DNA of 46,367 bases from Trueperaceae bacterium (GTDB taxonomy: Bacteria > Deinococcota > Deinococci > Deinococcales > Trueperaceae). Where the stretch lies: the NCBI GenBank assembly GCA_002707365.1, contig PAMQ01000019.1, forward strand, positions 1-46,367, written 5' to 3'. This document shows, piece after piece, positions 1 to 28,485 of the stretch. Both the position numbers and the translations under genes were made by a program. Within the stretch, counting starts at the first letter, position 1, and the number at the start of each line of letters is the position of its first letter. Below the pieces are notes generated by a model. The model was not told the origin of the DNA. It searched no databases and saw nothing but the letters and a program-made list of their open reading frames with translations.

Positions 1-220
1 AATCGCCAAGTCCGTGTTCGTGTGCCATAACTAGGAGTTTGTCGAAGTACGAGCGGTTAGTTTCGATCTCGTCAGGCGAGTAAACGTCTAGTGGGAAGAC
101 GTACCCTACTTCGTTGTATTTTTTGATTTGCTCTTTGGTGAGTTTTTTTGGATCTTTTGTTTCTATGGGAAAGAATTTTAGTTCTCTCTCCATATCTGGA
201 ATAGCATCTGTTTGTGCCAC
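1..220 (-). CDS. Phytanoyl-CoA dioxygenase family protein, N-terminal part (runs off the window)
   Basis: Reading the minus strand from a GTG at 218-220 gives 73 open codons up to the window edge. The start is supported by an AGGAGG Shine-Dalgarno sequence about 9 nt upstream (230-235). The peptide contains LTKEQIKKYNEVGYVFPLDV followed by SPDEIETNRSYFDKLL, which is typical of the N-terminal helix and first strand of phytanoyl-CoA dioxygenase (PhyH) proteins. These are Fe(II)/2-oxoglutarate oxygenases that hydroxylate small molecules. The HxD...H iron ligands would lie beyond the edge, so catalytic competence cannot be judged. The substrate is unknown. A second, complete PhyH-family gene lies at 2782-3660. 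Confidence 0.72.
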   Translation of the reverse strand, partial: MAQTDAIPDMERELKFFPIETKDPKKLTKEQIKKYNEVGYVFPLDVYSPDEIETNRSYFDKLLVMAHEHGLGD

Positions 221-250
221 TACCCGTACCTCCTGTTGAACTACTAAAAG

Positions 251-634
251 TCATTGCTCAGTGGTTCTTTCTAAATACCTACTTTGACCGTCTCGTCTAG
301 TCGGTTTAATACGGTTAAATCGTGGTAAGTCTCCGTGCTTATAACGGTACTTCTCTATTTCGGAAGCTTCTTCAGCTTTGGGTATGCGACTGTAAGTATA
401 ACGCCAGAATCGGATGTGTTCCTTCATGCATTTGCTGCTTTCTAGGTGCTGTCTGATCCTGTTTGGTGCATCGCGCGTCGATTGACCGATGTATATTAGG
501 CGCTTTCCTTCGTCAGCTAGTTCGTATACTCCTGGCAAGGCTTCACGTCCACGACGGGCGGGTAGCGTGCGGAGAGGGCGCCATCGAGCTAAGAGAGGCA
601 ATTTCCCCCCATAATTTTCGCAAAAAGAAGGCAT
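251..634 (-). CDS. Small GIY-YIG domain protein
   Basis: This is a 127-residue protein with a single GIY-YIG-like nuclease fold. GVY at residues 35-37 and YIG at 48-50 form the two-strand signature. Arg59 in NRIRQHL and Glu94 in the EIEKYR helix fit the usual catalytic Arg and Glu, and Asn107 fits the C-terminal Asn. No DNA-binding or second domain is present, so it resembles the stand-alone GIY-YIG proteins of unknown role rather than UvrC or homing enzymes. The ATG at 634 has no clear Shine-Dalgarno, and the first 30 residues are Arg-rich and outside the domain, so the start could be internal. It lies 30 nt upstream of the PhyH gene on the same strand, with era next upstream. Confidence 0.7.
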   Translation of the reverse strand: MPSFCENYGGKLPLLARWRPLRTLPARRGREALPGVYELADEGKRLIYIGQSTRDAPNRIRQHLESSKCMKEHIRFWRYTYSRIPKAEEASEIEKYRYKHGDLPRFNRIKPTRRDGQSRYLERTTEQ

Positions 635-658
635 GTTGATTTTTGGTTATGGTAATAA

Positions 659-1576
659 TTATGATTCATAACCTAATTCCCTAAGTTTTCGAGGATCTTC
701 GCGCCAATCAGCACTTATGACTACCTCTAAGTCCAAGAAAAGTTTAGTGTCAAGAAAGATCTCAAGTTGCTTTCGAGCGGTAGTACCAATTTCGCGAATC
801 ATCCGACCACCTTTCCCAATGACTATCGGTCGGTGGTTAGGGCGTTCAACCCAAATTTCTGCACTAAGATAAAGGGGATCTCCCTCGGCTTCGGGTTCTT
901 CCCAATTAGTTACCCTGGTTGCCACCGAGTAAGGTAGTTCTTGCCGAAGATGAATCATGGTGCTCTCGCGGATTAGTTCAGCCGCCCAAGCTTCACGGGT
1001 TTGATCACTACTGATGTCTGGTGGGAAGAAGAAAGGGTTCTCTGGGAGTAATTCTAGAAGTTTTGTTCGCAGGTCGTATACTTCCTGGGGACTTTCCAGA
1101 ACGCTCAATGGATAAACATAGGAAGGTTCAAATAAATCCTGGTAAAGTCGCAGCGCTTCATCAGGAAATTTAGCTGCATCAATCTTATTACCAATGAGGA
1201 ACACTGGTGTTTTGGTTTCGACGTTAGAAAGGATTTTTACAACATCCTTATCCTCGTCACTGGGTGGGCGTCGCAGATCAACTACCCACAGCACAGCGTC
1301 AACATCAGCGAGTGCAGTTCGGATTTCACGCGTCATGAATCGATCAAGCTCAGTGGGTCCTTGATGCACTCCTGGGGTGTCCACAAAAATTATTTGCGAA
1401 GATGTTTCTATGTCGGTGAAGACTCCACGAACACCTCTCCGAGTGGTTTGAGGTTTTGGAGTGATCGGTGCTACCTTCACCCCAAGCAATGTGTTGAGTA
1501 GAGTTGACTTACCTACATTGGGTTTCCCAATTATAGCTACAAAACCTGCACGTGAATTTGGGGTGGTGGTCACCAT
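659..1576 (-). CDS. era: GTPase Era
   Basis: Era is a ribosome-assembly GTPase that binds the 3' end of 16S rRNA during 30S maturation. The 305-residue length is normal. The G1 P-loop GKPNVGKST is at residues 17-25, followed by the switch region with [12 protein letters not shown] (G3) and NKID (G4). The C-terminal third is a KH domain with the GxxG-type loop [12 protein letters not shown] near residue 255. The end of the protein, [14 protein letters not shown], is characteristic of Era. It is transcribed toward the GIY-YIG gene, 24 nt away. The tRNA-fMet gene lies upstream on the same strand. Confidence 0.96.
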
Positions 1577-2781: not shown

Positions 2782-3660
2782 ATGAAAAGCCTCATGGCCA
2801 TTAGTGACGACGTGCTAGACAACCTTAGGACAGAAGGTTATGCCGTAGTGGAAGGGTTCTTAAACCCTAAGGAGCTTGCTGCCGCCCGAGAGGGCCTTTT
2901 TCTTGAATACCCTACGCCAGAAGCCTATTTCGCTAACCCTGAAAAATACACGCAGTTAGTCGAGACCCAGTTTAGTGGATTGAAGCTTGCGCCTTACTCC
3001 TCCTGGGATTTAAACAAAATCGCTTTCCATCCTGATCTGGTAGATTTTGCCGAGAGGTTCTGTGGTACGACCAATCTAGAACTCTATAAAATTGAGTTGT
3101 GGGCAAAGTACTCGGGTGCTATTGATTACGACCAAGCTCATCACCGTGATTTTGGCAATCACAATATGGTTGTGCCACGCCGGGACATGCTTTGGCCTCA
3201 ACTGACGTCATTCATATTGTTATCCGACGTTACTGAGGACGATGGTCCTACCCGGATTGTTCCTCGAGCTCATGGTGAAAAAGCACCAATGATTCCTCAC
3301 CTGCTCACAATGGGTGAAATGCAAGAACATGAAGTTACAATAACTGCTCCTGCTGGGAGTCTATTTCTCTACTCAACTGATATTTTCCATAGGGGATCCG
3401 CAATGACCGGTAAAAACCGTTCACGATTTATACTCCTTGCTGATTACTCGGCCCGCGGGAACCCGTGGATGGGCAAAATGTCTTGGCCTAGGTATGCTAA
3501 TCTCCCGGCCTGGCGGAAAATGATGGAGCGAGCCTCAGTTAGGGAACGTGACTTGTTCGGATTCCCATCTCCCGGCAATGAATACTGGAACGAACAGACG
3601 CTAGCTGACGTACAAGCCCGATACCCCGGAATGGACATGACACCCTACGCCCAAAAATAA
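2782..3660 (+). CDS. Phytanoyl-CoA dioxygenase (PhyH) family protein
   Basis: This is a 292-residue Fe(II)/2-oxoglutarate-dependent oxygenase. The iron-binding facial triad is visible as His121 and Asp123 in HHRDFGNH and His203 in IFHRGSAMTG. Arg213 or Arg215 in KNRSRF would bind the 2-oxoglutarate carboxylate. The N-terminal segment LRTEGYAVVEGFLNPKEL is typical of the family. Related proteins hydroxylate very different small molecules, so the substrate cannot be named. The gene is monocistronic, and its neighbour on the other side is the divergent moeB. No Shine-Dalgarno precedes the ATG at 2782. The ATG at codon 5 is an alternative start. Confidence 0.85.
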   Translation: MKSLMAISDDVLDNLRTEGYAVVEGFLNPKELAAAREGLFLEYPTPEAYFANPEKYTQLVETQFSGLKLAPYSSWDLNKIAFHPDLVDFAERFCGTTNLELYKIELWAKYSGAIDYDQAHHRDFGNHNMVVPRRDMLWPQLTSFILLSDVTEDDGPTRIVPRAHGEKAPMIPHLLTMGEMQEHEVTITAPAGSLFLYSTDIFHRGSAMTGKNRSRFILLADYSARGNPWMGKMSWPRYANLPAWRKMMERASVRERDLFGFPSPGNEYWNEQTLADVQARYPGMDMTPYAQK

Positions 3661-3830
3661 ATTTACTCCATTCAGTTTTCGTTATAGAAAAGTACTTATT
3701 GGGGTAGTCTCGACTCGGAAGAATTTGTCTAGATCTCTGTTTAGCTAATGTATGCTCTACTGAGCAGTTTAGAGAGGGCTTATAGAGCCAGGAGTAGCGT
3801 TGTTCGCGTTAATGAGGGGGCCCCCATACT

Positions 3831-5084
3831 GTGGGTATGACTACTACAATCCAGGGGTTTGATGCTGAGCCTGGAAAGACAAGGAATCTTTTGCTCTTGG
3901 CTGTAGCTACTTTGTTTTCGCTATCCCTGTGGTTTTCTGGATCTGCTGTCATTCCCCAAGTAACAGAGGCATGGGAGTTAGTTAGCTGGCAACAGTCTTG
4001 GCTTACTATGGGTGTGCAAGTTGGATTCGTCGTGGGTGCCCTTGTGAGTTCATTATTGAACTTGGCAGATCGAATTCCAACTAGGTGGTTTTTGGCAGGT
4101 AGTGCTCTAATGGGGGCCATCTTTAATGGGCTTATCGCCATCGCAGTGGACAGTTTTGAACCAGCGTTAATCCTTCGCGTTCTAACAGGAGTTTGCATGG
4201 CTGGTGTTTACCCACCCGGGATGAAACTTGTTGCGACATGGTGCCTACGGGACCGTGGGTTTGGCATCGGAGTTCTAGTAGGGGCTTTGACTATAGGATC
4301 AGGTTTGCCACACTTACTAAACGTTATTCCGGAATTATTTACAGAATCTACTGCTGTGGAGTGGAAGCCTGTTCTCCTAATCGCCTCTGGCTTGGCTCTA
4401 CTGGGTTCAGCAATAGCGGCCCTGTTTGTACGTCAAGGGCCCCACCTTACAGCAGCAACAAAATTCAACTGGCGGTTCGCGATGCGAGGGCTTTCTGATC
4501 CCCCTTGCCGACTTGCTAATTTTGGTTATTTCGGCCACATGTGGGAACTATACGCCATGTGGGCTTGGGTACCTCTCATGTTGATTGCCAGCTACAGCCA
4601 AGCAGGAATTGAGCTGATTCTAGCTCGCATTGCGGGCTTCGGAGTTGTGGCTATAGGTAGCGTCGGCTGCCTCATCGCGGGTTGGATGGCAGACAGATTA
4701 GGAAGGACGCAAGTCATAAGCGGAAGCCTTATTATCTCAGGTATTTGTGCAGCCGTGATTGGATTTTCTTTTTCGAACCCAGTATTACTAACTGCTATCG
4801 CTTTGATATGGGGGTTAACTGTGATTGCGGATAGCGCTCAATTTAGTGCTGCCGTAACGGAATTGAGTGACCCACGTTATGTTGGTACGGCTTTAACGGT
4901 ACAAACTAGCTTGGGTTTTCTGCTCACCCTCGTGTCAATTCATGCTGTCCCAAAGGTACAGGCCGTTCTCGGATGGGAGGGGGCGTTTCTAATCTTAGTT
5001 CTAGGGCCAGCATTTGGCTTGTGGAGTATGGTTGCCTTACGTCGGTTACCCGATGTACGTCGAATAGGTTCAGGTCGGCATTAG
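3831..5084 (+). CDS. MFS transporter, about 12 membrane segments
   Basis: This 417-residue membrane protein begins with TM1 at about residues 17-38 (LLLLAVATLFSLSLWFSG) and alternates hydrophobic helices to its C terminus. The inter-helix motif DRLGRTQV between the seventh and later helices is the typical MFS loop signature. The general form (single-domain permease without added domains) resembles the nitrate/cyanate-type or unassigned MFS families. The substrate is unknown. Start choice is GTG 3831, preceded by GAGGGGG about 10 nt upstream. ATG 3837 in the same frame is an alternative. It is convergent with the nucleoside phosphorylase gene. Confidence 0.82.
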   Translation: MGMTTTIQGFDAEPGKTRNLLLLAVATLFSLSLWFSGSAVIPQVTEAWELVSWQQSWLTMGVQVGFVVGALVSSLLNLADRIPTRWFLAGSALMGAIFNGLIAIAVDSFEPALILRVLTGVCMAGVYPPGMKLVATWCLRDRGFGIGVLVGALTIGSGLPHLLNVIPELFTESTAVEWKPVLLIASGLALLGSAIAALFVRQGPHLTAATKFNWRFAMRGLSDPPCRLANFGYFGHMWELYAMWAWVPLMLIASYSQAGIELILARIAGFGVVAIGSVGCLIAGWMADRLGRTQVISGSLIISGICAAVIGFSFSNPVLLTAIALIWGLTVIADSAQFSAAVTELSDPRYVGTALTVQTSLGFLLTLVSIHAVPKVQAVLGWEGAFLILVLGPAFGLWSMVALRRLPDVRRIGSGRH

Positions 5085-18856: not shown

Positions 18857-20509
18857 TCAGAGCTTCTTTGCTGCTATTTGGCGATGAGTTTCTAAGGAAC
18901 CATTACCCGATAGGCGTATGATTAGGTCACAGCATTCCAATAAGGTACGTTTATGTGTTACCACGAGTACTAGGCGATATTGTGATTCTCGGATGAGGGT
19001 ATCGATTAGAACTGCTTCTGTCTCGCGATCAAGGTTGGCGCTGGGCTCATCTAGTAAAAGTACTTTTGGATTACCTAGCAAGGCTCTGGCCACAGCCAGG
19101 CGTTGTCGTTGGCCACCCGATAAGCCTGCTCCATCCTCTTGCAATTGGTAGTTAAGTCCACCAGATAATGACCGTACGGCATGATCCATCTGGACGTCTT
19201 TAAGGGTTGTCCAGGTATCCGTCTCATTCGCGGGGCGTCCTAAACGTAAGTTGTCTATTATGCTTCCCCGAAGCAAATCTGTTTCCTGGGGAACGTATCC
19301 TATTAAGTCAGCGATTTGGTGTTGGTCTATTAACTGCCCCTCCCACAGGACAGCTCCTTTTTGAGGTAATAGAAATCCGAGTATTAGGTTTAGGAGAGTA
19401 CTTTTTCCTACTCCACTTTCACCTTGCAAAGCTATTAGTCCTTTATCACCAAAGGCGATATTGACGTTATTAAGAATTGGGGTGGTTGGTTGATAACCGA
19501 AAGTAACGTCTCGAAGTTCTAGACCTGGGGAGTCACTTTTTAGATGTTCGATGCTTTGCATATTGTCCGTAATTCTCATGAGTAGAATTAGTCGGGTCCG
19601 AGCTGCTCTGGCCTGTTGCAAAAAGGCATAGCTACGGGGCAGAATCTGTGCTGGTGTAGCTAAGAATGCCACTAAGGCTAGAAACGTTGCCGCTTCGCCT
19701 GCAGTGAGGGTTCCTCCGGCTACTCGGCCGGCAAGTAGACTGACAAGACCCGCTACGGCCAAGAAAACCAGGATTTGTGTTATTGGAACCTGCAGGCTAG
19801 CTAGATAGGTTCTTCTGATTGATGCTAAGCGAGTAAGCTTATTGTCTACAGAGAATCGCGTCATTAGGAAATGAATAGCGTTGAATGCCTTAGCCACTCT
19901 ATGATGCTTTAAGCCTTCTTGTAAGTGGGCACTTACCGCCTCAGTACTCTCTTGTGTTGACGTTGCTGCCCGTCGAAGCCAGTAGCCAACTAACCAGAGT
20001 ATTCCGATAGGAGGAATAGTTAGTAAGGTGAGAGCAAGGGTTGCGTTGAAGCTAAGTGCTGCTAGAATTCCTAGGGTGCCGAGTATAGTAACGGTTTCAG
20101 CCACCAAGCTACCAACGCCAAACTGAATGAACATCTCAACATCTTTTAAATCAGTAAGGATTCGTCCTGTGATTCCGCCGCTCGTACCGGGAAGAGTTCC
20201 GGGACGCCGGTTTAGGAGATCTTGGTAAATCTGTTTTCGCCAACGCTCTGCAGTTGTCGCTGCTTCTCGGCCGAAAAGACTGTCTTGGCTAAATAGAAGC
20301 ACCGAGGTTCCAATTACTGCTAGTCCTACTAGTACTAATATGCGCGGTAAAGCGCTTAAGTCTCCTGCTGTTAGTACCTGATCAAACAAAGGCGTGACGA
20401 AAAGAGGAATAATCGCGACTCGCAGGCCGGCGGTTCCTATAGCTGCAAAGAAACCAAGGATAGCGAGAAGGGACCTGGGAAAAAGTGGGGGGAAACGACT
20501 ATTTAGCAT
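18857..20509 (-). CDS. MsbA-like ABC exporter (fused membrane and ATPase domains)
   Basis: This 550-residue half-transporter has an ABC type 1 membrane domain (about 12-310, six helices) and an ATPase domain (about 328-545). Walker A GESGVGKST is at 363-371, the signature LSGGQRQR at 463-470 and Walker B LLLDEPSANLD at 484-494. The H-loop is in VVTHKRTLL. Its place directly after the LpxB-like gene (11-nt overlap, with ATG inside the upstream stop region) suggests it flips lipid A precursor across the inner membrane, as MsbA does. Sequence alone cannot separate it from other lipid or drug exporters. Confidence 0.88.
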   Translation of the reverse strand: MLNSRFPPLFPRSLLAILGFFAAIGTAGLRVAIIPLFVTPLFDQVLTAGDLSALPRILVLVGLAVIGTSVLLFSQDSLFGREAATTAERWRKQIYQDLLNRRPGTLPGTSGGITGRILTDLKDVEMFIQFGVGSLVAETVTILGTLGILAALSFNATLALTLLTIPPIGILWLVGYWLRRAATSTQESTEAVSAHLQEGLKHHRVAKAFNAIHFLMTRFSVDNKLTRLASIRRTYLASLQVPITQILVFLAVAGLVSLLAGRVAGGTLTAGEAATFLALVAFLATPAQILPRSYAFLQQARAARTRLILLMRITDNMQSIEHLKSDSPGLELRDVTFGYQPTTPILNNVNIAFGDKGLIALQGESGVGKSTLLNLILGFLLPQKGAVLWEGQLIDQHQIADLIGYVPQETDLLRGSIIDNLRLGRPANETDTWTTLKDVQMDHAVRSLSGGLNYQLQEDGAGLSGGQRQRLAVARALLGNPKVLLLDEPSANLDRETEAVLIDTLIRESQYRLVLVVTHKRTLLECCDLIIRLSGNGSLETHRQIAAKKL

Positions 20510-21701
20510 TTATGTCCGCTAGTATTTCGGTAACTAATTTTTTGGCGGCACCAGGTCTTGGCATGCTAGCAAGGAGTTGTCGTCTCCGGCGCAAAAGATC
20601 TGTTGGGTCATCAATCAATCCGGTTATTTTCTCTACTACTTGAGGGACAGAAATTATTCCTCGTACCTCTAACATTATATCCGTCCCAGCAATCCTATTA
20701 GGTAGGGAAATGGGGATAGATAGACGATTTACAAAAATCCTTACAGCGCATCTCTTAAGTAAAGGCCCAACTAAAGGGATTAAACCCAGCCAGTGACCAA
20801 TTCCTTCGAGCGGAATGGCTTCAGGCTTGTTCATTGGTAGAAGAACAATACTCGGCACACCTGCTATGCCTAGTTCAAGAGTGTTAGTTCCTGGGATTGT
20901 TACTGCGATGTCAGAATTCCGCATGTGTTTATAGCGGTCGGCCTCAGGCACCATTTCAATAAGGGTGCCTGAGGGTGTTGTCACAAAATTTCCTTGGCGC
21001 GATCCTGCAAGGCTGCATGGAAATACTGGTTGTTTAGCAGCGATACCATCTTCAATAGTGCGTTCAGAAAGCAATCGGCTCACTGGCCACACAAAACTGG
21101 CATTAGGATAAATTTGACCTAGCTCGTCTGCTAACGCAAGGAAAAAAGGTATAAGCGTTACGGCGAAGGCATCGCGGCTACCAGGAAAAAGAAGGATGTG
21201 GGGAAAGTTGGTAGATTCAGGTGGCGTGCTGATATCCACTGCATCAGCAACCAGGTTTCCTACCCTCTTGATTCGGTTATTAGGCGCCCCTTTAAGGTGG
21301 GCCTGCCGTTCTGTAGGTTTGTCTTGTACAAAAATTGCTTTAAGATCTCGATGCCAGGATGGGATGAAATGGTAACGGTAAGTGGGATAACCAAGTTTCC
21401 TGCCAAGGCGAAGAGCCAAAGCCTGGCTACCTCCGAGGCTTAAGACGAAACCATTGTCACCGCTCCAAGCTGGCGGTATACGGCCCGTGGTAAGGAAACT
21501 AATAAATTCTTTTGGAGAGCTTACGCTATCAGCACCAAACGTCCGTGCGATATCTGTCTCGTCCCCAGCCGCAAACTGGCAAGGGATTAAACAGATCGTG
21601 GTTTTTACTTTCAAATTTCGTGATTGAAGCTCCTTTAAAACTGGTTGGACCCAGGTGTAAAGTTCACCAGGTCCATTGCTAACCAGAATCGCCTCAGTCA
21701 C
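20499..21701 (-). CDS. Lipid-A-disaccharide synthase (LpxB)-like glycosyltransferase
   Basis: This is a predicted glycosyltransferase of about 400 residues in the lpxB position. It starts TEAILVSNGPGELYTWVQPV, a GT-B type N terminus, and has SGTLIEMVPEADRYKHM and TIPGTNTLELGIAGVPSIVL, equivalent to the SGTxTLE segment of LpxB. The canonical LpxB start (GEASGD) is absent, and it is closer in feel to the LpxB-related proteins of cyanobacteria. GTG 21701 is chosen because AGGAGG lies 7 nt upstream, at the tail of lpxA, with 1 nt between genes. An ATG 21 nt further upstream lies inside lpxA and lacks this support. Disaccharide synthase activity is inferred from context. Confidence 0.75.
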   Translation of the reverse strand: MTEAILVSNGPGELYTWVQPVLKELQSRNLKVKTTICLIPCQFAAGDETDIARTFGADSVSSPKEFISFLTTGRIPPAWSGDNGFVLSLGGSQALALRLGRKLGYPTYRYHFIPSWHRDLKAIFVQDKPTERQAHLKGAPNNRIKRVGNLVADAVDISTPPESTNFPHILLFPGSRDAFAVTLIPFFLALADELGQIYPNASFVWPVSRLLSERTIEDGIAAKQPVFPCSLAGSRQGNFVTTPSGTLIEMVPEADRYKHMRNSDIAVTIPGTNTLELGIAGVPSIVLLPMNKPEAIPLEGIGHWLGLIPLVGPLLKRCAVRIFVNRLSIPISLPNRIAGTDIMLEVRGIISVPQVVEKITGLIDDPTDLLRRRRQLLASMPRPGAAKKLVTEILADINAK

Positions 21702-21702
21702 T

Positions 21703-22476
21703 CTAAGGCCTCCTAGTTGCAAAGGAAGCTACACCACGCTCTGATTCATCGCGGAATTGTTTCATGACTTTTACATCAGTGCTATGGCAAGCTAATTCTT
21801 CGAACTTTTCTTTATCGTTTCTACGGAGAGCACGTATTGCTCGTTCTAGAGCTGCATAACGTTCGTCAGTAACGCCACGTCGTCTTAGGCCAACTCGATT
21901 CAATCCATAGTGAGTTGCTGGAGTACTTGCTGCCATACAGTGAGGCAAAATATCCTTAGAGGTAGCGCTTCCGCCAGCCATAATTGCTTGAGTGCCTACT
22001 CGGCAGAACTGATGGATAAGGGCATTAGCTCCGAGGAAAGCATAATCTCCTATCTGAACGTGGCCCCCTAGTTGAACGGAAGTAGCAAGGGTAGTGTGCT
22101 TACCTACTTTTACGTTGTGCGACACGTGAGTGTAGGTCATGATTAAGGAACCTGTACCGACCCGCGTTTCTGACCCTTCCCCAGTAGCGCGGTGAACTGT
22201 CACGAACTCGCGTAGCTCTACTTCATCCTCAAGGATCGCCAGGCTAGGTTCTCCTTGATAGGCGTTATCCATAGGTAGGCCACCAATTATCGCGTAGGGT
22301 CCGATTTTACATCGGGACCCAATTCGACTGCCTTTTAAAAGGACAGTGCCGGTTAGAAGCTCTGTATCTTCTCCAATCTCAACATCGTCTTCTATGACTA
22401 CGAGCGGTCCGATAGTTATTCTAGGCCCAATAACTGCCTTGCTGGAAACAATTGCGGTGGGATGAATTGAAGACAC
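21703..22476 (-). CDS. lpxA: UDP-N-acetylglucosamine acyltransferase LpxA
   Basis: LpxA performs the first lipid A step, moving a 3-hydroxyacyl group from ACP to UDP-GlcNAc (or the 3-amino analogue). The 257 residues form a left-handed parallel beta helix of hexapeptide repeats. The catalytic His is His120 in THVSHNVKVG, preceded by TVHRATGEG. The GSATSKDILPH region borders the acyl pocket. The C terminus is the helical LRRRGVTDERYAALERAIR tail that closes the trimer. Length is normal (E. coli 262). Start is GTG, 6 nt after the fabZ stop. The chain-length residue corresponding to E. coli Gly173 cannot be fixed safely without alignment. Confidence 0.95.
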   Translation of the reverse strand: MSSIHPTAIVSSKAVIGPRITIGPLVVIEDDVEIGEDTELLTGTVLLKGSRIGSRCKIGPYAIIGGLPMDNAYQGEPSLAILEDEVELREFVTVHRATGEGSETRVGTGSLIMTYTHVSHNVKVGKHTTLATSVQLGGHVQIGDYAFLGANALIHQFCRVGTQAIMAGGSATSKDILPHCMAASTPATHYGLNRVGLRRRGVTDERYAALERAIRALRRNDKEKFEELACHSTDVKVMKQFRDESERGVASFATRRP

Positions 22477-22482
22477 CTTATA

Positions 22483-22899
22483 TCACTTAGCTAGCACGAA
22501 AGTGAGTTTTGCTTTAGCGGCAAGTTCGTTACCTACTAACGCTGCGGCATTGACCTTCAATAGCGACTTCCTGAACAAAAGTATTGTTCCTGTAAGTCTG
22601 AGTTGATCCCCCGGAACGACCTTGCGCTTAAATTTTGTCTCGTCTACTGCTGCAAGATAACCGAGCCGACCTTCTTGGAATTCTTCACGTACTGCGAGGC
22701 CTATTGCAGCAGCTTGGGCAAGAGCTTCGATGATCAGGACGCCAGGCATAACTGGTTCCTCAGGAAAGTGACCCATAAAGAACGGTTCATTGTGACTAAC
22801 GTTCTTTATGCATTCGAAATCGTCTCCTTCTTGATAGACGAAAGAATCAACGAAGAGGAATGGGTAGCGATGCGGCAGGATCGCTTTAATATCGATCAT
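22483..22899 (-). CDS. fabZ: 3-hydroxyacyl-ACP dehydratase FabZ
   Basis: FabZ dehydrates 3-hydroxyacyl-ACP in fatty acid elongation and competes with LpxA for the same substrate. This explains its frequent place beside lpxA. The 138 residues have the hot-dog fold with LPHRYPFLFVD, catalytic His44 in GHFPEEPVMPG and Glu58 in VLIIEALAQA. It begins 59 nt after the oxidoreductase gene and is separated from lpxA by 6 nt. Confidence 0.95.
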   Translation of the reverse strand: MIDIKAILPHRYPFLFVDSFVYQEGDDFECIKNVSHNEPFFMGHFPEEPVMPGVLIIEALAQAAAIGLAVREEFQEGRLGYLAAVDETKFKRKVVPGDQLRLTGTILLFRKSLLKVNAAALVGNELAAKAKLTFVLAK

Positions 22900-22958: not shown

Positions 22959-23906
22959 TCATGGTTGTTGTTGGAGTTTTACAATCAAAGAGGTAGCTAG
23001 CTCAAGTGATCGTAAATCATCTTCAAGGGTGCCAATAGGATCTGCGCTTTGCTCAATTCTCGCTAAGAAGTGTTCTAGTTCCCTTCTGAGAGGATTATCT
23101 TCCACGACTACCCGACGATCAACCTGCACGTGGTTCTCTTCACCATTCGCTAACGGCCTAAATGTCGCTACTTCCGTGTGTGGCTCCTTGGCGAAGTCAA
23201 GATGAAGAGTCTGATGCTCCTCTGCCACTACAAGGGTCCTCTCAGCGTCAGGCGCAATTCTACTGGCTAAGAAACGAGCAATACACCCGTTTTCGAAACG
23301 TATTTGAGCCGCAGCTAGATCTTCGTATTTAACGCTGTTGAGAAAATGTCCAGCAACGGTAATCTCTTTTATGGGGCTTTCAACAATTCCCAATACAATG
23401 TCAATGTCGTGAATCATTAGGTCAAGTATGACTCCTACGTCCTGGATTCGAGCGTAAGGGGTTAGCCGACGTGCTTCTACCAAGTAAGGACTTTTAATCT
23501 GTGCGTTAAGAATATCTACCGCCTTATAAAAGCGCGTGATGTGTCCTACTTGTAAGACCAACTCTTCGCGGCGGCTAAGTTCCACTAGCTCCTTGGCCTG
23601 AACAACGCTTGTTGCAGCTGGCTTTTCTACCAATACATGTATTCCTGCAGATAACAAGGTTCGGGTTAGTTCGTGGTGAGTAATTGTGGGCGAGGCGACA
23701 CTAACAGCGTCGGGTGGATCGCATTCTAGTAACTCCGTTAAGGTTTCATACACAGTACAGCCGTAGACCTTTTGAGCTTCATGGCGTCGGGATGGGTCTG
23801 GATCAACTATTGCTATAAGAGTAGTTTGGGAAAGCGTGGCATAAACATTTGCATGGAATCTACCCATTACTCCAGCACCAATTACAGCTACCCTTAGGGG
23901 TTTCAC
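22959..23906 (-). CDS. Gfo/Idh/MocA family oxidoreductase inside the lpx operon
   Basis: This is a 315-residue NAD(P)-dependent sugar dehydrogenase-type protein. The Rossmann loop VIGAGVMGRFHANVY is at 8-22. EKPAATS at 94-100 has the catalytic Lys95, and the active-site MIHDIDIV places His166 and Asp169. The GTG start overlaps the lpxC stop (GTGA), so the gene is tightly coupled to the operon. In some bacteria a Gfo/Idh enzyme (GnnA) oxidises UDP-GlcNAc at C3 to make diamino-sugar lipid A, together with the aminotransferase GnnB. No GnnB is in the window, so this role is only a hypothesis. Such genes also occur in lpx operons without known function. Confidence 0.88.
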   Translation of the reverse strand: MKPLRVAVIGAGVMGRFHANVYATLSQTTLIAIVDPDPSRRHEAQKVYGCTVYETLTELLECDPPDAVSVASPTITHHELTRTLLSAGIHVLVEKPAATSVVQAKELVELSRREELVLQVGHITRFYKAVDILNAQIKSPYLVEARRLTPYARIQDVGVILDLMIHDIDIVLGIVESPIKEITVAGHFLNSVKYEDLAAAQIRFENGCIARFLASRIAPDAERTLVVAEEHQTLHLDFAKEPHTEVATFRPLANGEENHVQVDRRVVVEDNPLRRELEHFLARIEQSADPIGTLEDDLRSLELATSLIVKLQQQP

Positions 23907-24676
23907 AGGTCCATCTCCGGAGGCTTCTCGGAAAACAACTCTTTTAGGAAGTCTACATGGAGTTTATGAGATCCACGGGTCACGGTAATTTTCCCCTCGA
24001 GAGGATAGCCAAGTAAGAACATATCTCCAAGGGCATCCAGTGCTTTGTGGCGAGCCAGCTCGTCTGGGAAGCGTAACGGACGAAGTGGGCCCATATCGTC
24101 AAAGACAATAGCATTTTCTAGACTTGCTCCTAATGCTAAACCTGCTTCCTTAAGCTTCTCTGCTTCAGATAGAAAGCCGAATGTTCGTGCGCCTAACAAG
24201 GAAGAAAAGGAATCTGGACCACCACACCAAGCCTGATGGCCGATTGCTGGGTGTGGGAATTCAATTTTTGTACAAAGGCTATGCTCCCCAGGTTCTATCA
24301 TCATTGAACTTGAGCCCTGCCGATGATTCAAGCCTTTCTTCGGTTGTAAGGCTATAGGTTTTTGGCCTTTACCAAAAGGTGCTAGGGTCTCGATCCAAGG
24401 TTGGGCAGATCCGTCAAGTATAGGCAGCTCGTCGTTATCAACTTCAATAACTAATCCTGTCCATAAATCCAGGGTGTATAGACTAGCGAGCAAATGCTCT
24501 ACTACAGCTACTCGGGCTGGGCCTACTCCAAGGACGGTGCAACGATCAGTGCCAGTAACGGCACTTAGCTTTGCCGGTATTTCTTGGCCTGCACGTCGGA
24601 AACGTACTGCACCGCTGTCTTGGAAGATCCTAACTTTACTTCGAGTACCCCCGTGTAAAGTAATGCCTTCAATCAC
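23903..24676 (-). CDS. lpxC: UDP-3-O-acyl-N-acetylglucosamine deacetylase LpxC
   Basis: This zinc amidase makes the committed lipid A step. Zinc ligands are visible: the His in VVEHLLASLY, and the His and Asp in ARHKALDALGDMF. The catalytic His lies in RGSHKLHVDFL, and VDNDELPILDGSA is also typical. The start is difficult. GTG at 24676 overlaps the lpxD stop by 8 nt (GTGATTGA) and gives 257 residues. The eight or so codons upstream (KTLRVSVV) still match the family, yet no ATG, GTG or TTG occurs before the ATG at 24796, which would overlap lpxD by 128 nt. The true N terminus may thus be upstream or use a rare codon. LpxC is normally about 280-305 residues. Confidence 0.9.
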   Translation of the reverse strand: MIEGITLHGGTRSKVRIFQDSGAVRFRRAGQEIPAKLSAVTGTDRCTVLGVGPARVAVVEHLLASLYTLDLWTGLVIEVDNDELPILDGSAQPWIETLAPFGKGQKPIALQPKKGLNHRQGSSSMMIEPGEHSLCTKIEFPHPAIGHQAWCGGPDSFSSLLGARTFGFLSEAEKLKEAGLALGASLENAIVFDDMGPLRPLRFPDELARHKALDALGDMFLLGYPLEGKITVTRGSHKLHVDFLKELFSEKPPEMDL

Positions 24677-25688
24677 TACTGAGACTCTTAACGTTTTGCC
24701 ACATCTTTTCGAGTCTTCCGAGGAGATAAAGTCGTCTTGTAAATTTCCGGTGAGCCATAGCTGGGAAACCGCTGAAGGTTTCTCCAGCCGGAACATTTTT
24801 TGTAACCGCCGCGCAGAATGAAATGCGAGCGTCATCACCTATCGAAATATGATCGGCAAGAGTTGTCCCACCTCCTACAAGTACTCGCGAGCCTATTTTA
24901 GTACTACCACCAATGCCCGCTTTTCCAGCAATGACTGTGTCATTTCCTATTTGAACATTGTGACTTACAAAGCAGTGATTGTCGATCTTGCAGCGGTCTC
25001 CAATTCGAGTGGGATCTAAGGTACCTCGGTCGATAGTAGTGTTAGCTCCAACTTCTACGTTGTTGCCAATAATTACTCCGGCTAGGTGGTGGATCTTAAG
25101 CATGCCCTTTGGGCTTACTGCGTATCCGAACCCATCAGCTCCGATTATAGTTCCGCTGTGAAGATGGACCCCGTTCCCAATCGAAACTCCGTCGTATAAA
25201 ACTACTTTTGCGTAAAGCCGGCAACTATCGCCCAGTTGGGTGCCATGTCCTATTACGCATCCAGGACCTATACTAGTGTTCACTCCGATCTTGACGTGTG
25301 GACCTATAACAGTTCCTGGGCCTACATTAACCCCTTCTGCGACATGGGCAGTGGAGTCGATTGTTGCTGTTGGGTGTATGCCAGGGTTATCTTCAGGTCG
25401 ATTGTTAAACCTTGAACTGAGAAGAGCAAGCGCGACTCGTGTATCTTCGACTTTGATTATTGGTTGACTTTCACGGTACTCAGCATCGCTGGATACGACC
25501 AAAACACTAAATTGCGAGCCTTGTGCAGTTTTGAGAAGTTTGGTTGTGCCTGCAACCGCTATGCCACCTTCAACTGGTGTTGTAGGTGGCACTAGTTGCG
25601 TGACGAGGCGACACTCTCCAAACAATTTTCCGTCTAGCCAATTAGCTAATTCTGAGCTTGTTATGGGTTTAGGTAGTTTCCTGGTCAC
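24669..25688 (-). CDS. lpxD: UDP-3-O-acylglucosamine N-acyltransferase LpxD
   Basis: LpxD adds the second acyl chain (N-linked) to the LpxC product from acyl-ACP. The N-terminal uridine-binding domain includes ITSSELANWLDGKL. About ten hexapeptide turns follow from residue 105 (IHPTATIDSTAHV). The family landmark GADGFGYA is present and the catalytic His is in CFVSHNVQIG. A GTG at 25688 is preferred because GAGGAG lies 10 nt upstream, at the 3' end of the S55-like gene, leaving a 4-nt gap and 339 residues. An ATG at 25715 overlaps that gene by 23 nt. The C-terminal helix (LLGRLEKMWQNV) is the usual acyl-carrier contact tail. Confidence 0.94.
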   Translation of the reverse strand: MTRKLPKPITSSELANWLDGKLFGECRLVTQLVPPTTPVEGGIAVAGTTKLLKTAQGSQFSVLVVSSDAEYRESQPIIKVEDTRVALALLSSRFNNRPEDNPGIHPTATIDSTAHVAEGVNVGPGTVIGPHVKIGVNTSIGPGCVIGHGTQLGDSCRLYAKVVLYDGVSIGNGVHLHSGTIIGADGFGYAVSPKGMLKIHHLAGVIIGNNVEVGANTTIDRGTLDPTRIGDRCKIDNHCFVSHNVQIGNDTVIAGKAGIGGSTKIGSRVLVGGGTTLADHISIGDDARISFCAAVTKNVPAGETFSGFPAMAHRKFTRRLYLLGRLEKMWQNVKSLSSD

Positions 25689-25692
25689 CGTG

Positions 25693-27345
25693 CTATTGCT
25701 CCTCTTCTGCTTCATCTTGGTTTAGGTTCTGGATTTCTATTTCAAGCGTTTCTTGTCCTTCTATAATAAATGGGAAGATTTGACGTTGTAGAAGCCGGGC
25801 TTTCCCGTCAGTTATAACTTCAATCACGAGTTCGCTAGCCTGCTGTTCATCGCGTAAAGCAACTAGCAGGTCTCCGAAAGAGAGTATGTCTCCGTCCCAT
25901 GGTTCGTAGTCTTCCTTATCTTGCTCTTGATCTTGATCTCGATATTGTCCGGAACGAAAGACTAAAGCGACTTTGCCTTCTAGATCTTGCGGTAGGTCAA
26001 TTAGGAGTTCTTCAACTAACGCCTGGCCTCTGTATGGTTGGAGCCGGATGTAAGCCACTAATACTTCACCAGGTGCCACATCGAGGGTAGCTGCGTCAAC
26101 GTTTACCAGTTCCGCTGTTCTTAGGTATTTTTCGTAACTGATGTTTAGATTCACTTGTTTCAGGTCTGGCGTTTCAAAGGGGTTAATGCTTAGGATTTTC
26201 AATGGTTCTGCTGCAATTTTTGAAGTTGCCAGAGCAAGATCGTCGCGGTGGCTTGTTTGTTGAAGCATTGTAAGGCGGTCCCCTGTTTGGAAAAGTATTT
26301 CCCAGGCAAGCTCACTGGTTCCGCCGCTTACTTCGTTGCGGATTTCGTCGAGCAATTGCTGGACGCTGACTTGGAGGAGGGTGGGGTAGAGACCTTCCTC
26401 TCTTACTATTTCTACTTTTCTGATTAGCGTGTTTCGCGTATCACTCAGGCTGATGTTTACCGGTAGTAAATCTGGTTTCTTGTCGATATTTCCTGCGAGG
26501 CCAGCAAAGCGATCCTGAATGATAGATCCTAAAATATGGGTTCCGCTGTTTGCTAATTTAAAAGGCACAAGGTCGCTAGGGACAATATGGATGATGTCAG
26601 CGGTGGTAAGAGGAAATGAAACATTGCCGAGTCCAAGAAGGGAATGCCCTAGAGCCAAAACTTCTCCGTTAGCTACTTCTGTAACAGTCCCTATGGCTGC
26701 AACGGTTATGTCGCCACGAACGAGCTGGATGCTTATAGCGCTGCCTGCCTCCAGACTTGTTGATTCGTCGGACTGGACTGTACCACCTGTCTGTATTGGT
26801 AAGAAGTTTAACGGACTTTCTCTAAGGAGAGGACCTAGCCGATCAATAGTCCTACTACTTACTCCAGATAGTAATAGAGGAGTTGCTACTGGTACTGCTG
26901 CAGTTAAACCGCCGGTAGGCCACGTCCCGAATGGAATAGTTTCCGGTTCATCAAATAAGCCTCGCATAGCGCTTATGGGAGTAACGAGAGCCAGATGGTG
27001 ATCGCTTTCTGGAAACACATATGCGATGGCTCCTAGTAGAGATTTCTCTTGTTGGTCATCCTTGTGCAGATATACTGGACTCCCGCTCATACCTGCAGAT
27101 ATACCCTCAGCTTGGTCTATTAGCTCGCCTTCTGCTCTTATTATGATCAGCGGGAATCCAAGGCTGGGATCTTCTTGAACGCCAAGGATTTTAATGGGAA
27201 ACCGTTCGAGTTTACCTCCAACCCCTTCAGTAACACCAAATCCGTTTTGGCCTTCTACCAGTTCACTTAAAGGGAAATCTTCTGCTGTGGCAATAGCTAC
27301 TACCAACACAAATGTTAGAACAATCTTAGCCCGGCAGGCTTGCAT
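25693..27345 (-). CDS. SpoIVB peptidase S55-like secreted protein
   Basis: This 550-residue protein has a cleavable-looking signal (LTFVLVVAIATAEDF, cleavage near residue 21) and would be periplasmic. The serine motif AGMSGSPVY (Ser87) is followed by LGAIAYVF. The histidine motif EVLALGHSLLGLG (His234) and GSIIQDRFAG come later. Both are the S55 signatures of SpoIVB, but in SpoIVB the His motif precedes the Ser motif. Here the order is reversed, as also occurs in relatives outside spore formers. No PDZ domain is obvious. The C-terminal 200 residues are beta-rich and acidic (DQDQEQDKEDYEPWD). It lies between mreB (2 nt gap) and lpxD, so an envelope role is likely. Protease activity is unproven. 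Confidence 0.75.
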   Translation of the reverse strand: MQACRAKIVLTFVLVVAIATAEDFPLSELVEGQNGFGVTEGVGGKLERFPIKILGVQEDPSLGFPLIIIRAEGELIDQAEGISAGMSGSPVYLHKDDQQEKSLLGAIAYVFPESDHHLALVTPISAMRGLFDEPETIPFGTWPTGGLTAAVPVATPLLLSGVSSRTIDRLGPLLRESPLNFLPIQTGGTVQSDESTSLEAGSAISIQLVRGDITVAAIGTVTEVANGEVLALGHSLLGLGNVSFPLTTADIIHIVPSDLVPFKLANSGTHILGSIIQDRFAGLAGNIDKKPDLLPVNISLSDTRNTLIRKVEIVREEGLYPTLLQVSVQQLLDEIRNEVSGGTSELAWEILFQTGDRLTMLQQTSHRDDLALATSKIAAEPLKILSINPFETPDLKQVNLNISYEKYLRTAELVNVDAATLDVAPGEVLVAYIRLQPYRGQALVEELLIDLPQDLEGKVALVFRSGQYRDQDQEQDKEDYEPWDGDILSFGDLLVALRDEQQASELVIEVITDGKARLLQRQIFPFIIEGQETLEIEIQNLNQDEAEEEQ

Positions 27346-27347
27346 GA

Positions 27348-28382
27348 TTAGCGTCGGAGGAAGTTATCCGAAGTCAGCGCGTCTTGTAAGACATGAACCA
27401 TGTCCAGAGCCCGTCCTGTTCCAAGGGCAACACAGTCCATAGCATCTTCTGCTACGACTACTGGGATACCTGTTGTTTGTCGTAATAATTCGTCGAAGTT
27501 CTTAAGCATTGACCCGCCCCCAGTCATAATTATGCCGCGGTCAATCACATCAGCAACAAGCTCTGGTGGTGCTAGCTCTAGGACTCGTCGGACACCGTCC
27601 GCAATTTTTTGTATAGGTTCTCGTAGCGCCTCAACAGTGTCTTCAGTGGTCAGTGAAATAGTCTTAGGGAGGCCATTTATTAGATCACGCCCTCGGACAT
27701 CTATTTCGTGCACTTCATCAGGACCCCTAACTACAGCTGCCCCGATTTTAGTTTTTACTTCCTCAGCCGTTCGATCTCCGATTAGAAGATTTTCTTTGTT
27801 ACGAATGTAACGGATGATTGCTTCATCGAATTCATTACCAGCTATGCGCATGCTTTCCGATACAACGATACCTCCGAGGCTGATTATTGCAACGTCGGTG
27901 GTACCACCACCGATATCGACAATCATTGAGCCAGTGGGTTCCGCTATGTTTACGCCGGCCCCTATTGCAGCAGCTAGAGGTTCTTCAATTAGAAAGGCTT
28001 TTCGTGCTCCTACTTCTCGTGTGGCCTGAAGAACAGCGCGCCTCTCTACCTCAGTTACTCCTGAAGGAACACAGACCATTATGTGAGGCTTAAAAAAACG
28101 TCCAGCTCCCGTGATTACTTTTTGAACGAATGCTTTAAGCATCTTTTCTGTTAAATCGTAGTCAGCGATTACTCCATCTCGCATTGGTCGGACCGCGACG
28201 ATATTGCCGGGAGTACGACCGAGCATGCGGTAAGCTTCATCCCCTACTGCTTTAACGTCACCAGAGTCACGCACCATAGCTATGACCGAAGGTTCGCGAA
28301 GCATAATTGATTTGCCTTTGACATAGATTAAGACTGTAGCTGTTCCTAGATCTACACCAATCTCCTGCCAGAGCTTGAACAT
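27348..28382 (-). CDS. mreB: Rod-shape actin homologue MreB
   Basis: MreB is a bacterial actin that polymerises under the inner membrane and positions cell-wall synthesis. From ATG 28382 there are 344 residues. The start is chosen because GAGG sits 5 nt upstream, and the frame also offers GTG 28388. The N terminus MFKLWQEIGVDLGTATVLIY has the phosphate-1 motif, DIGGGTTDVAI is phosphate-2, and IIMTGGGSML lies near the adenosine site. FLIEEPLAAAIGAG is typical of MreB. MreC and MreD are not adjacent. Instead the S55-like gene and lipid A genes follow, which suggests co-expression of cell shape and outer-membrane lipid synthesis. Confidence 0.96.
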   Translation of the reverse strand: MFKLWQEIGVDLGTATVLIYVKGKSIMLREPSVIAMVRDSGDVKAVGDEAYRMLGRTPGNIVAVRPMRDGVIADYDLTEKMLKAFVQKVITGAGRFFKPHIMVCVPSGVTEVERRAVLQATREVGARKAFLIEEPLAAAIGAGVNIAEPTGSMIVDIGGGTTDVAIISLGGIVVSESMRIAGNEFDEAIIRYIRNKENLLIGDRTAEEVKTKIGAAVVRGPDEVHEIDVRGRDLINGLPKTISLTTEDTVEALREPIQKIADGVRRVLELAPPELVADVIDRGIIMTGGGSMLKNFDELLRQTTGIPVVVAEDAMDCVALGTGRALDMVHVLQDALTSDNFLRR

Positions 28383-28485
28383 CCTCACCTCAGACGTGCT
28401 CGAACCCTTCTCATAAACTTACGGTTCTATGCAACACCTCAGTATACCGCCTAGGGATGTTACGTGGGAGAGGTTCTATCGTTTA

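Follow-up and report, generated by a model that had tools for sequence, protein, structure and literature searches.

The peptidases HtrA, DegP, DegQ and DegS of clan PA are periplasmic enzymes of envelope quality control, with catalytic residues in the canonical order His-Asp-Ser and with PDZ domains. To our knowledge, the order of the two barrels is constant in the known proteases of this clan; a natural family with reversed barrels would be a clean circular permutation between two half-enzymes. SpoIVB, of peptidase family S55 (Pfam PF05580; TIGR02860; structure 9LNF), is reported to signal across the membrane (PMC6581720) and to possess an unusual triad, Asp363 lying about 24 Å from His236 in the crystal and Thr393 being proposed instead (PMC12502668), while S55 has been widely detected in acidobacteria (PMC8841776). 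Vpar_0521, a protein with an N-terminal SpoIVB domain and a DUF1090, was recorded among 78 outer membrane (OM) proteins of V. parvula and in the whole-cell (WC), OM and SE fractions; in the available portion of that study it is said to be conserved in diderm Firmicutes, its role is given as unknown, and its description does not mention a permutation (PMC5491611). A further study describes mlaEFD-tolC-tamB as part of a large OM cluster and as conserved throughout the Negativicutes, and the word 'SpoIVB' is absent from its main text (PMC10665443).

Here we describe P0001, the product of a gene in a window of 46,367 nucleotides from a member of the Trueperaceae, in which the Ser half of an S55-like peptidase precedes the His half. 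The family is already known as an uncharacterised SpoIVB-domain protein. Within the open-licence literature, a coverage that makes any absence weak, we found no report of a permuted S55, and none of the barrel exchange, the Asp278/Asn switch or the near-coincidence with Omp85 set out below; in a comparison of the PA clan (PMC6524800), no word begins with 'permut', 'S55' or 'SpoIVB'.

The protein, its operon and its Ser half

P0001 is encoded on the minus strand, the plus-strand translation of the same interval (25693–27345) being full of stops. A preliminary description of this DNA had proposed a secreted protein with its Ser motif before its His motif, exchanged halves, extra beta-rich sequence behind them and a place in an envelope operon. 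The motifs GMSGSPVY, ALGHSLLG and QDRFAG (residues 277–282) lie where it had put them, and the N-terminus has, by eye, the hydrophobic character of a Sec signal (MQACRAKIVLTFVLVVAIATAED). The sequence behind the halves is indeed beta-rich by DSSP on an AlphaFold2 model, which was built on alignment A3 (36 rows) and has a pLDDT of 86.8 and a pTM of 0.85; this C-terminal module attracts weak Ig-like Pfam matches only, in single relatives.

The envelope operon was likewise borne out (Table 1), the gene lying between mreB and a series comprising lpxD, lpxC, a Gfo/Idh gene, fabZ, lpxA, an lpxB-like gene and an ABC exporter; two bases separate the mreB stop from the S55 start, and we take the hexapeptide acyltransferase gene to be lpxD from its place and form. 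As listed, the frames of lpxC and lpxD share 170 bases (24669–24838, minus strand); the LpxC profile begins at residue 48, so that lpxC probably starts downstream of its listed start. A Gfo/Idh gene stands between lpxC and fabZ both in the window and in most Trueperaceae loci; the 3-amino-GlcNAc for amide-linked lipid A is the product of GnnA-type enzymes.

Table 1. Features of the S55-like gene, its neighbours in the window, and short-form relatives (coordinates of the latter are those of the locus named)
Feature	Coordinates	Strand	Basis
mreB/mbl, directly upstream of S55 gene	27348–28388	minus	PF06723, E 4e-136
Permuted S55-like protein P0001, 550 aa	25693–27345	minus	translation, PF05580, A3 conservation
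Probable Sec signal peptide, residues 1–21	27283–27345	minus	by eye; model helix 6–13
Ser barrel, residues 18–134, predicted counterpart of SpoIVB/PA barrel 2	26944–27294	minus	PF05580, hhalign, VIA-align, PDB profile search
GMSGSPVY, residues 85–92, Ser87	27070–27093	minus	translation, A3 and homologue conservation
Joining segment, residues 135–198 (about 60 residues)	26752–26943	minus	136–150 pLDDT <50; 156–186 beta-alpha-beta in model
His barrel, residues 199–314, probable counterpart of SpoIVB/PA barrel 1	26404–26751	minus	hhalign, His-half HMM, fragment model
ALGHSLLG, residues 231–238, His234	26632–26655	minus	translation, A3 and homologue conservation
QDR, residues 277–279; Asp278 is the proposed triad acid	26509–26517	minus	135/135 rows (106 distinct); pairs with invariant SpoIVB Asn
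Beta-rich C-terminal module, residues 342–538	25732–26322	minus	DSSP on AlphaFold2 model
lpxD-type hexapeptide acyltransferase, 23-base overlap with S55 gene	24669–25715	minus	Pfam hexapeptide repeats
lpxC	23903–24838	minus	PF03331, E 5e-63
Gfo/Idh/MocA oxidoreductase	22959–23906	minus	Pfam
fabZ-type dehydratase	22483–22899	minus	PF07977, E 3e-24
lpxA	21703–22476	minus	PF13720, E 4e-15
lpxB-like	20499–21722	minus	PF02684, E 2e-7, short match
MsbA-type ABC exporter	18857–20509	minus	PF00664 and PF00005
Short permuted S55 ORF, L206 (G227)	3622–4713		
Short permuted S55 ORF, L207 (G260)	1–1332		
Short permuted S55 ORF, L208 (G314)	1691–2851	minus	

The S55 profile PF05580 matched P0001 at 27.6 bits (cut-off 25) in the Ser half only, with residues 43–113 on profile positions 131–196 of 210, which places the S55 likeness beyond chance; in a six-frame search the match to the gene reached 24.4 bits, below the cut-off. 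All 36 members of A3 match the profile at E up to 1, and where ordinary SpoIVBs span positions 2–210 the permuted proteins match only within 104–210. Both the GMSGSP-type Ser loop and the GH-type His motif of Peptidase_S55 are present, while the collinear His-then-Ser order of that domain is not, Ser87 preceding His234. The SpoIVB equivalog TIGR02860 scored 15.4 bits against a cut-off of 305.25, and P0001 shows no PDZ match in Pfam at E up to 10; for 36 relatives, searched at E up to 1, PDZ is likewise missing from the 17 families listed. P0001 is not SpoIVB, and is a member of S55 only in the permuted sense.

Profiles were compared half against half, using 135 permuted rows (106 distinct sequences) and 41 ordinary SpoIVBs, each cut in two. 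The Ser half (P0001 20–135) is homologous to the C-terminal half of SpoIVB, with an hhalign score of 116 (probability 99.4%, E 2.4e-21) against a shuffle mean of 12.4 (sd 2.5) and 0/150 column shuffles as high; the alignment starts at the SpoIVB inter-barrel linker (EAIPVAS in L118, residue 338) and runs to the C-terminus. When PDB sequences were searched, P0001 alone found no match and the A3 profile found 9LNF (E 1.8e-11) with the Ser half alone, at profile positions 31–111. In the full model, VIA-align placed residues from about 18 to 134 on DegP 149–261 and DegQ 127–243 (Z 7.8–7.9) and on norovirus 3C-like 68–174, which we take to be the second barrels of those enzymes; PA rows among the best 50 had Z of 7.1–8.0 and rmsd mostly of 2.3–3.7 Å. 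Although Z alone could mean a common arrangement, the sequence match agrees with it, and the Ser half is predicted to be the Ser-bearing second barrel of clan PA. The HtrA-type peptidases share this barrel 2 fold; in the window's genome PF13365 gives two trypsin-like matches apart from P0001. Foldseek with the whole model returned nothing at E 0.001, and 9LNF is missing from the best 50 rows for the full-length model in both Foldseek and VIA-align, appearing with the His-barrel fragment only.

Conserved residues and a proposed third catalytic position

At least 488 relatives were confirmed in named genomes, and the best 80, from Trueperaceae/Deinococcales, Negativicutes, Halanaerobiales and other Bacillota, were studied; among the matches listed, the closest is from Truepera sp. 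bin119 (56%), and the named homologues put the window within or close to the Trueperaceae (Deinococcota). These 80 loci yielded 73 sequences, all distinct and kept on length and 'SGSP' alone, after removal of five outside the ORF cluster (L047, L053, L055, L056, L086) and two that were wrong-frame or short (L058, L075). P0001 itself and 61 of the 65 loci among L003–L037 and L176–L205 make up the remaining 62 of the 135 rows, these loci being kept only if both G[MF]SGSPV and [FL]GH were found (L182, L186, L193 and L203, with SGSPI, were dropped); many of these 61 repeat genomes of the 73, hence the 106 distinct sequences.

In A3, Ser87, His234, Asp212, Lys263 and Asp278 are invariant, and Met86 is Phe in two rows. 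His234 and Asp278 are each present in 73/73 of the homologues from named genome contigs, and both are invariant, with Ser87, in all 106 distinct relatives, a conservation to be read in the knowledge that Ser was selected for throughout and His in 61 rows, whereas Asp212, Lys263 and Asp278 played no part in the selection. Ten of the dropped frames were inspected, and all ten show a GxSGSP and a GH motif, with Ser and His kept in 9–10. In Deinococcales family f3, three sequences (L035, L036, L037) have the loop GFSGSP in place of GMSGSP and retain all three of Ser, His and the QDR-site Asp; the fourth, L034, has GMSGSP.

The counterpart of Asp278 in the SpoIVB alignment is Asn in 41/41 sequences. 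The positions of Asp363 and Thr393, assigned from their distance to the Ser in the sequence, hold D and T in 41/41 SpoIVBs and have no conserved counterpart in the 135 aligned rows of the permuted family, which show mostly S, G or Y at the former (D in 4/135) and A, G or S at the latter. Because the permuted family holds Asp where SpoIVB holds Asn, the alignment of the His halves, itself weak, suggests that the third triad position of SpoIVB may be this Asn, so that its puzzling triad would receive a simple reading as Asn where the permuted relatives retain Asp.

Pseudo-peptidases usually lose one of the Ser, His and acid residues, and here two phyla share an unaltered His234, Asp278 and GxSGSP loop. 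This counts against the view that the permuted S55 fold is a scaffold or chaperone bridging wall and OM, in which Ser and His are structural only; we consider such a role unlikely, although the GFSGSP loop of the f3 sequences would suit it, as would the unusual triad reported for SpoIVB itself (PMC12502668).

Distribution and gene neighbours

The proposed envelope setting extends beyond the window. Neighbours were identified by Pfam on one representative each, together with the window genes. Most Trueperaceae loci that reach so far have the order mreB-S55-lpxD-lpxC-Gfo/Idh-fabZ-lpxA-lpxB-ABC exporter; the Negativicutes have S55-mlaE-mlaF-mlaD-tolC-tamB (e.g. L064, L066, L079, L093, L106), the Halanaerobiales mreB-S55-tamB-bamA (L084, L101, with variations in L062, L063 and L091), and L067 and L100 have flgI-flgJ-S55-bamA-short gene-lpxD. 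Downstream of the 74 S55-cluster ORFs of at least 400 aa lie mlaE (33), the lpxD/lpxA cluster (13, counting the wrong-frame L058), tamB (13), bamA (3), others (3) or nothing (9); once L058 is left out, one of these four OM neighbours follows the gene in 61/73. Upstream are a small biotinyl-lipoyl-like gene (25), mreB (16), NAGPA (14), flgJ (3), others (5) or nothing (11), so that mreB adjoins the S55 gene in a minority and elsewhere stands further off. By annotation and gene order, Vpar_0521 appears to be a member of the permuted family, its locus number being lower by five than that of TamB (Vpar_0526), an order also seen in the Negativicutes loci of this analysis (PMC5491611).

A tree of the 73 homologues and the window's protein sets Deinococcota apart from Bacillota (SH-aLRT 100 on each side), and each of Veillonellales, Selenomonadales, Halanaerobiales and Acidaminococcales is set off from the rest by a single branch; inheritance looks mainly vertical, since the tree follows taxonomic groups. 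One contig labelled Acholeplasmataceae (L117) carries the gene, groups with Acidaminococcales and is probably mis-binned. Viral contigs scanned with A1 and A3 gave 141 and 39 pattern matches and no relative, and plasmids searched by tblastn gave none.

The loci led to 17 genomes; in 12 of them the permuted protein is accompanied by an ordinary SpoIVB and in five it occurs without one, from which we take it to be a separate paralogue. We then surveyed 249 genomes from the phylum of Pelosinus fermentans (G111, genome of L066), taken as Bacillota, in 218 of which PF05580 has a match. Counting the permuted protein as present where A3 matched at E 1e-60 or better, it occurs in 64 genomes and Omp85 in 64 (63 above the Pfam cut-off, G367 below it): 61 have both, three the permuted protein only, three Omp85 only (G367 among them) and 182 neither. 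Fisher's test gives 1.8e-50 for this coincidence, with kinship ignored among genomes that are not independent. A sporulation role was considered and dropped, given this PF05580 survey and the ordinary SpoIVB alongside in 12/17.

The three Bacillota genomes with the permuted protein and no Omp85 match (G227, G260, G314) hold a short form of 363–443 aa (Table 1), in which GTSGSP or GASGSP is followed by FGHPLL and then QDR, with neither the C-terminal module nor, by eye, a clear signal peptide; an ordinary SpoIVB is also present in each (PF05580).

Among 111 Deinococcota genomes, a single-sequence search found the permuted protein in 41, against 101 with Omp85 and 61 with LpxC, which indicates that an outer membrane does not need this protein; in this phylum only some outer membranes come with the gene. 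The 41 carriers have an Omp85 match in 34 and an LpxC match in 37, PF01103 finding no Omp85 in G000, G005–G007, G092, G093 and G095. In the first of these, the window's own genome, POTRA repeats occur in an 895-residue open frame (G000:C17:27381-28253; L211, L212), which makes a divergent BamA-type protein likely there. Nor is the protein tied to LPS, since 21 genomes of family f5 have LpxC and no permuted gene and four carriers have no LpxC match; an LPS-bound role was dropped on the evidence of G084, among others. In that one-contig genome (Trueperaceae bin86), locus L039 has mreB-S55 by Gfo/Idh-fabZ-lpxA-lpxB, with no LpxC match and no clear lpxD; ordinary lipid A may have been lost there while the S55 gene was kept.

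An envelope operon would also suit a site-1-type signalling protease that, like DegS or SpoIVB, triggers an envelope-stress cascade, the latter being described as signalling across the membrane (PMC6581720). We think this quite improbable, however: no PDZ domain was found, no regulator is among the Pfam-identified neighbours (many neighbours having no Pfam identity), and Vpar_0521 is reported from the whole-cell, OM and SE fractions (PMC5491611).

The His half and the order of the barrels

In sequence, the His half (P0001 196–300) resembles that of SpoIVB weakly, with an hhalign score of 20.2 (probability about 6%, E 0.006) against a null mean of 12.0 (sd 2.2) and 16.3 for the reversed profile; 0/150 shuffles were as high, and the signal is modest because the best of them reached 20.1. 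The crossed pairings of halves fall within the null, with 38/150 and 12/150 shuffles as high. A first run with a wider cut had given the His half just 0.1%, and cutting more tightly, at a low posterior threshold, produced a collinear alignment (4–5% probability, E about 0.01) that pairs GTxT...GH and G-x-I-x-x-[DN]-x-x-x-G. An HMM of the SpoIVB His half gave 19.0 bits for one permuted relative, L199, a frame of 666 residues in which the Ser loop lies near residue 93 and GTLTYLDPSGRFVAFGHPLT lies beyond residue 230, placing GTLTYLDP...GH in register; it scored 8.4 for the next permuted protein, at most 6.6 for 895 ORFs that do not belong to the S55 cluster and 4.1 for the best shuffle. This score is clear for one relative only, and the best match spans the GH motif in 82/134 proteins. 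The His-half profile found short unrelated matches only among PDB sequences, at E 0.3.

Folded alone, P0001 190–342 reached a pLDDT of 91.6, and Foldseek ranked 9LNF, SpoIVB, first of 350,542 chains for this fragment (prob 1.00, E 0.039; nothing at E 0.001). VIA-align superposed 86 residues on 9LNF at 2.8 Å, with 23% identity and Z 4.5 (model 10–100, P0001 199–289, on chain 108–301). Other PA proteases reached Z 7.0, with matched stretches from near residue 104 or later, presumably their second barrel; such values would be expected if the two barrels of the fold resemble each other. Since this exceeds the Z of 9LNF, a PA-type barrel is the firmer description of the His half, and its assignment to barrel 1 rests on 9LNF and on sequence, PilZ, MreC and other beta-barrels scoring 4.4–5.5. 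The model strands (203–211, 214–225, 228–231, then His234, 240–255, 262–279 with Asp278 at its end, and 282–287) follow what we take to be the order of PA barrel 1, with Asp278 presumably corresponding to Asp102 of chymotrypsin. The identification of the second half as the SpoIVB His barrel is fairly well supported, and the exchange of halves proposed at the outset holds, for the Ser half by hhalign and the barrel 2 fold, for the His half weakly by sequence and by the rank of 9LNF. Mean-field coevolution, at an effective depth of 77 for 298 columns, put inter-barrel pairs among the top, and these carry no interpretable signal.

An active site formed in trans, by a domain-swapped dimer in which Ser and His barrels from different chains pack together, would be permitted by a join of some 60 residues whose residues 136–150 fall below pLDDT 50; we hold this to be very unlikely, the single-chain pTM suggesting a defined arrangement. 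That there is no permutation, the S55 Ser barrel having behind it a beta-barrel of other origin whose GH motif is fortuitous, would suit the weak His-half match and the PilZ and MreC scores, but is made highly improbable by the first rank of 9LNF, by L199 standing well above background and in register, and by the invariance of His234 and Asp278.

With moderate confidence, we favour the reading of P0001 as a Sec-exported serine peptidase of the S55/clan PA kind, periplasmic or associated with the OM, that acts in OM biogenesis and has its barrels exchanged. It shares with SpoIVB the GxSGSP loop, a homologous Ser half and a His half that is similar in fold and, weakly, in sequence, and departs from it in the order of the halves, the lack of a PDZ domain, the added C-terminal beta module, the Asp in place of the invariant Asn, the lack of a conserved counterpart of Thr393 or Asp363, and the setting of the gene in an OM operon and not one of sporulation. 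In the exchanged-barrel peptidase, the Ser barrel, the join, the His barrel and the beta-rich module would follow one another in that order, the barrels packing so that Ser87, His234 and Asp278 form a PA-type triad, in which Asp278 would take the place of Asp102 where SpoIVB has Asn. The putative enzyme may cut, in a limited way, an OM-assembly component (of LPS, phospholipid or OMP transport), or itself beside one; the C-terminal module would dock it, and its adjacency to mreB may couple OM growth to wall elongation. A wider proposal, which we consider rather doubtful, is that a naturally circularly permuted peptidase of the chymotrypsin fold is an ancient, vertically inherited core component of OM biogenesis in Terrabacteria, coupled to elongation by MreB; the sporulation protease SpoIVB would then be its paralogue with the order changed, one that was taken into forespore use and lost the Asp102-type acid.

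Because the gene accompanies OM-building genes in the bacteria examined, a role in making or checking outer membranes is probable, and the family is probably an overlooked part of how this is done. For a published and conserved, though unexplained, OM-related factor of diderm Firmicutes, the exchanged-barrel reading provides a concrete hypothesis, with Ser87, His234 and Asp278 as its key residues.
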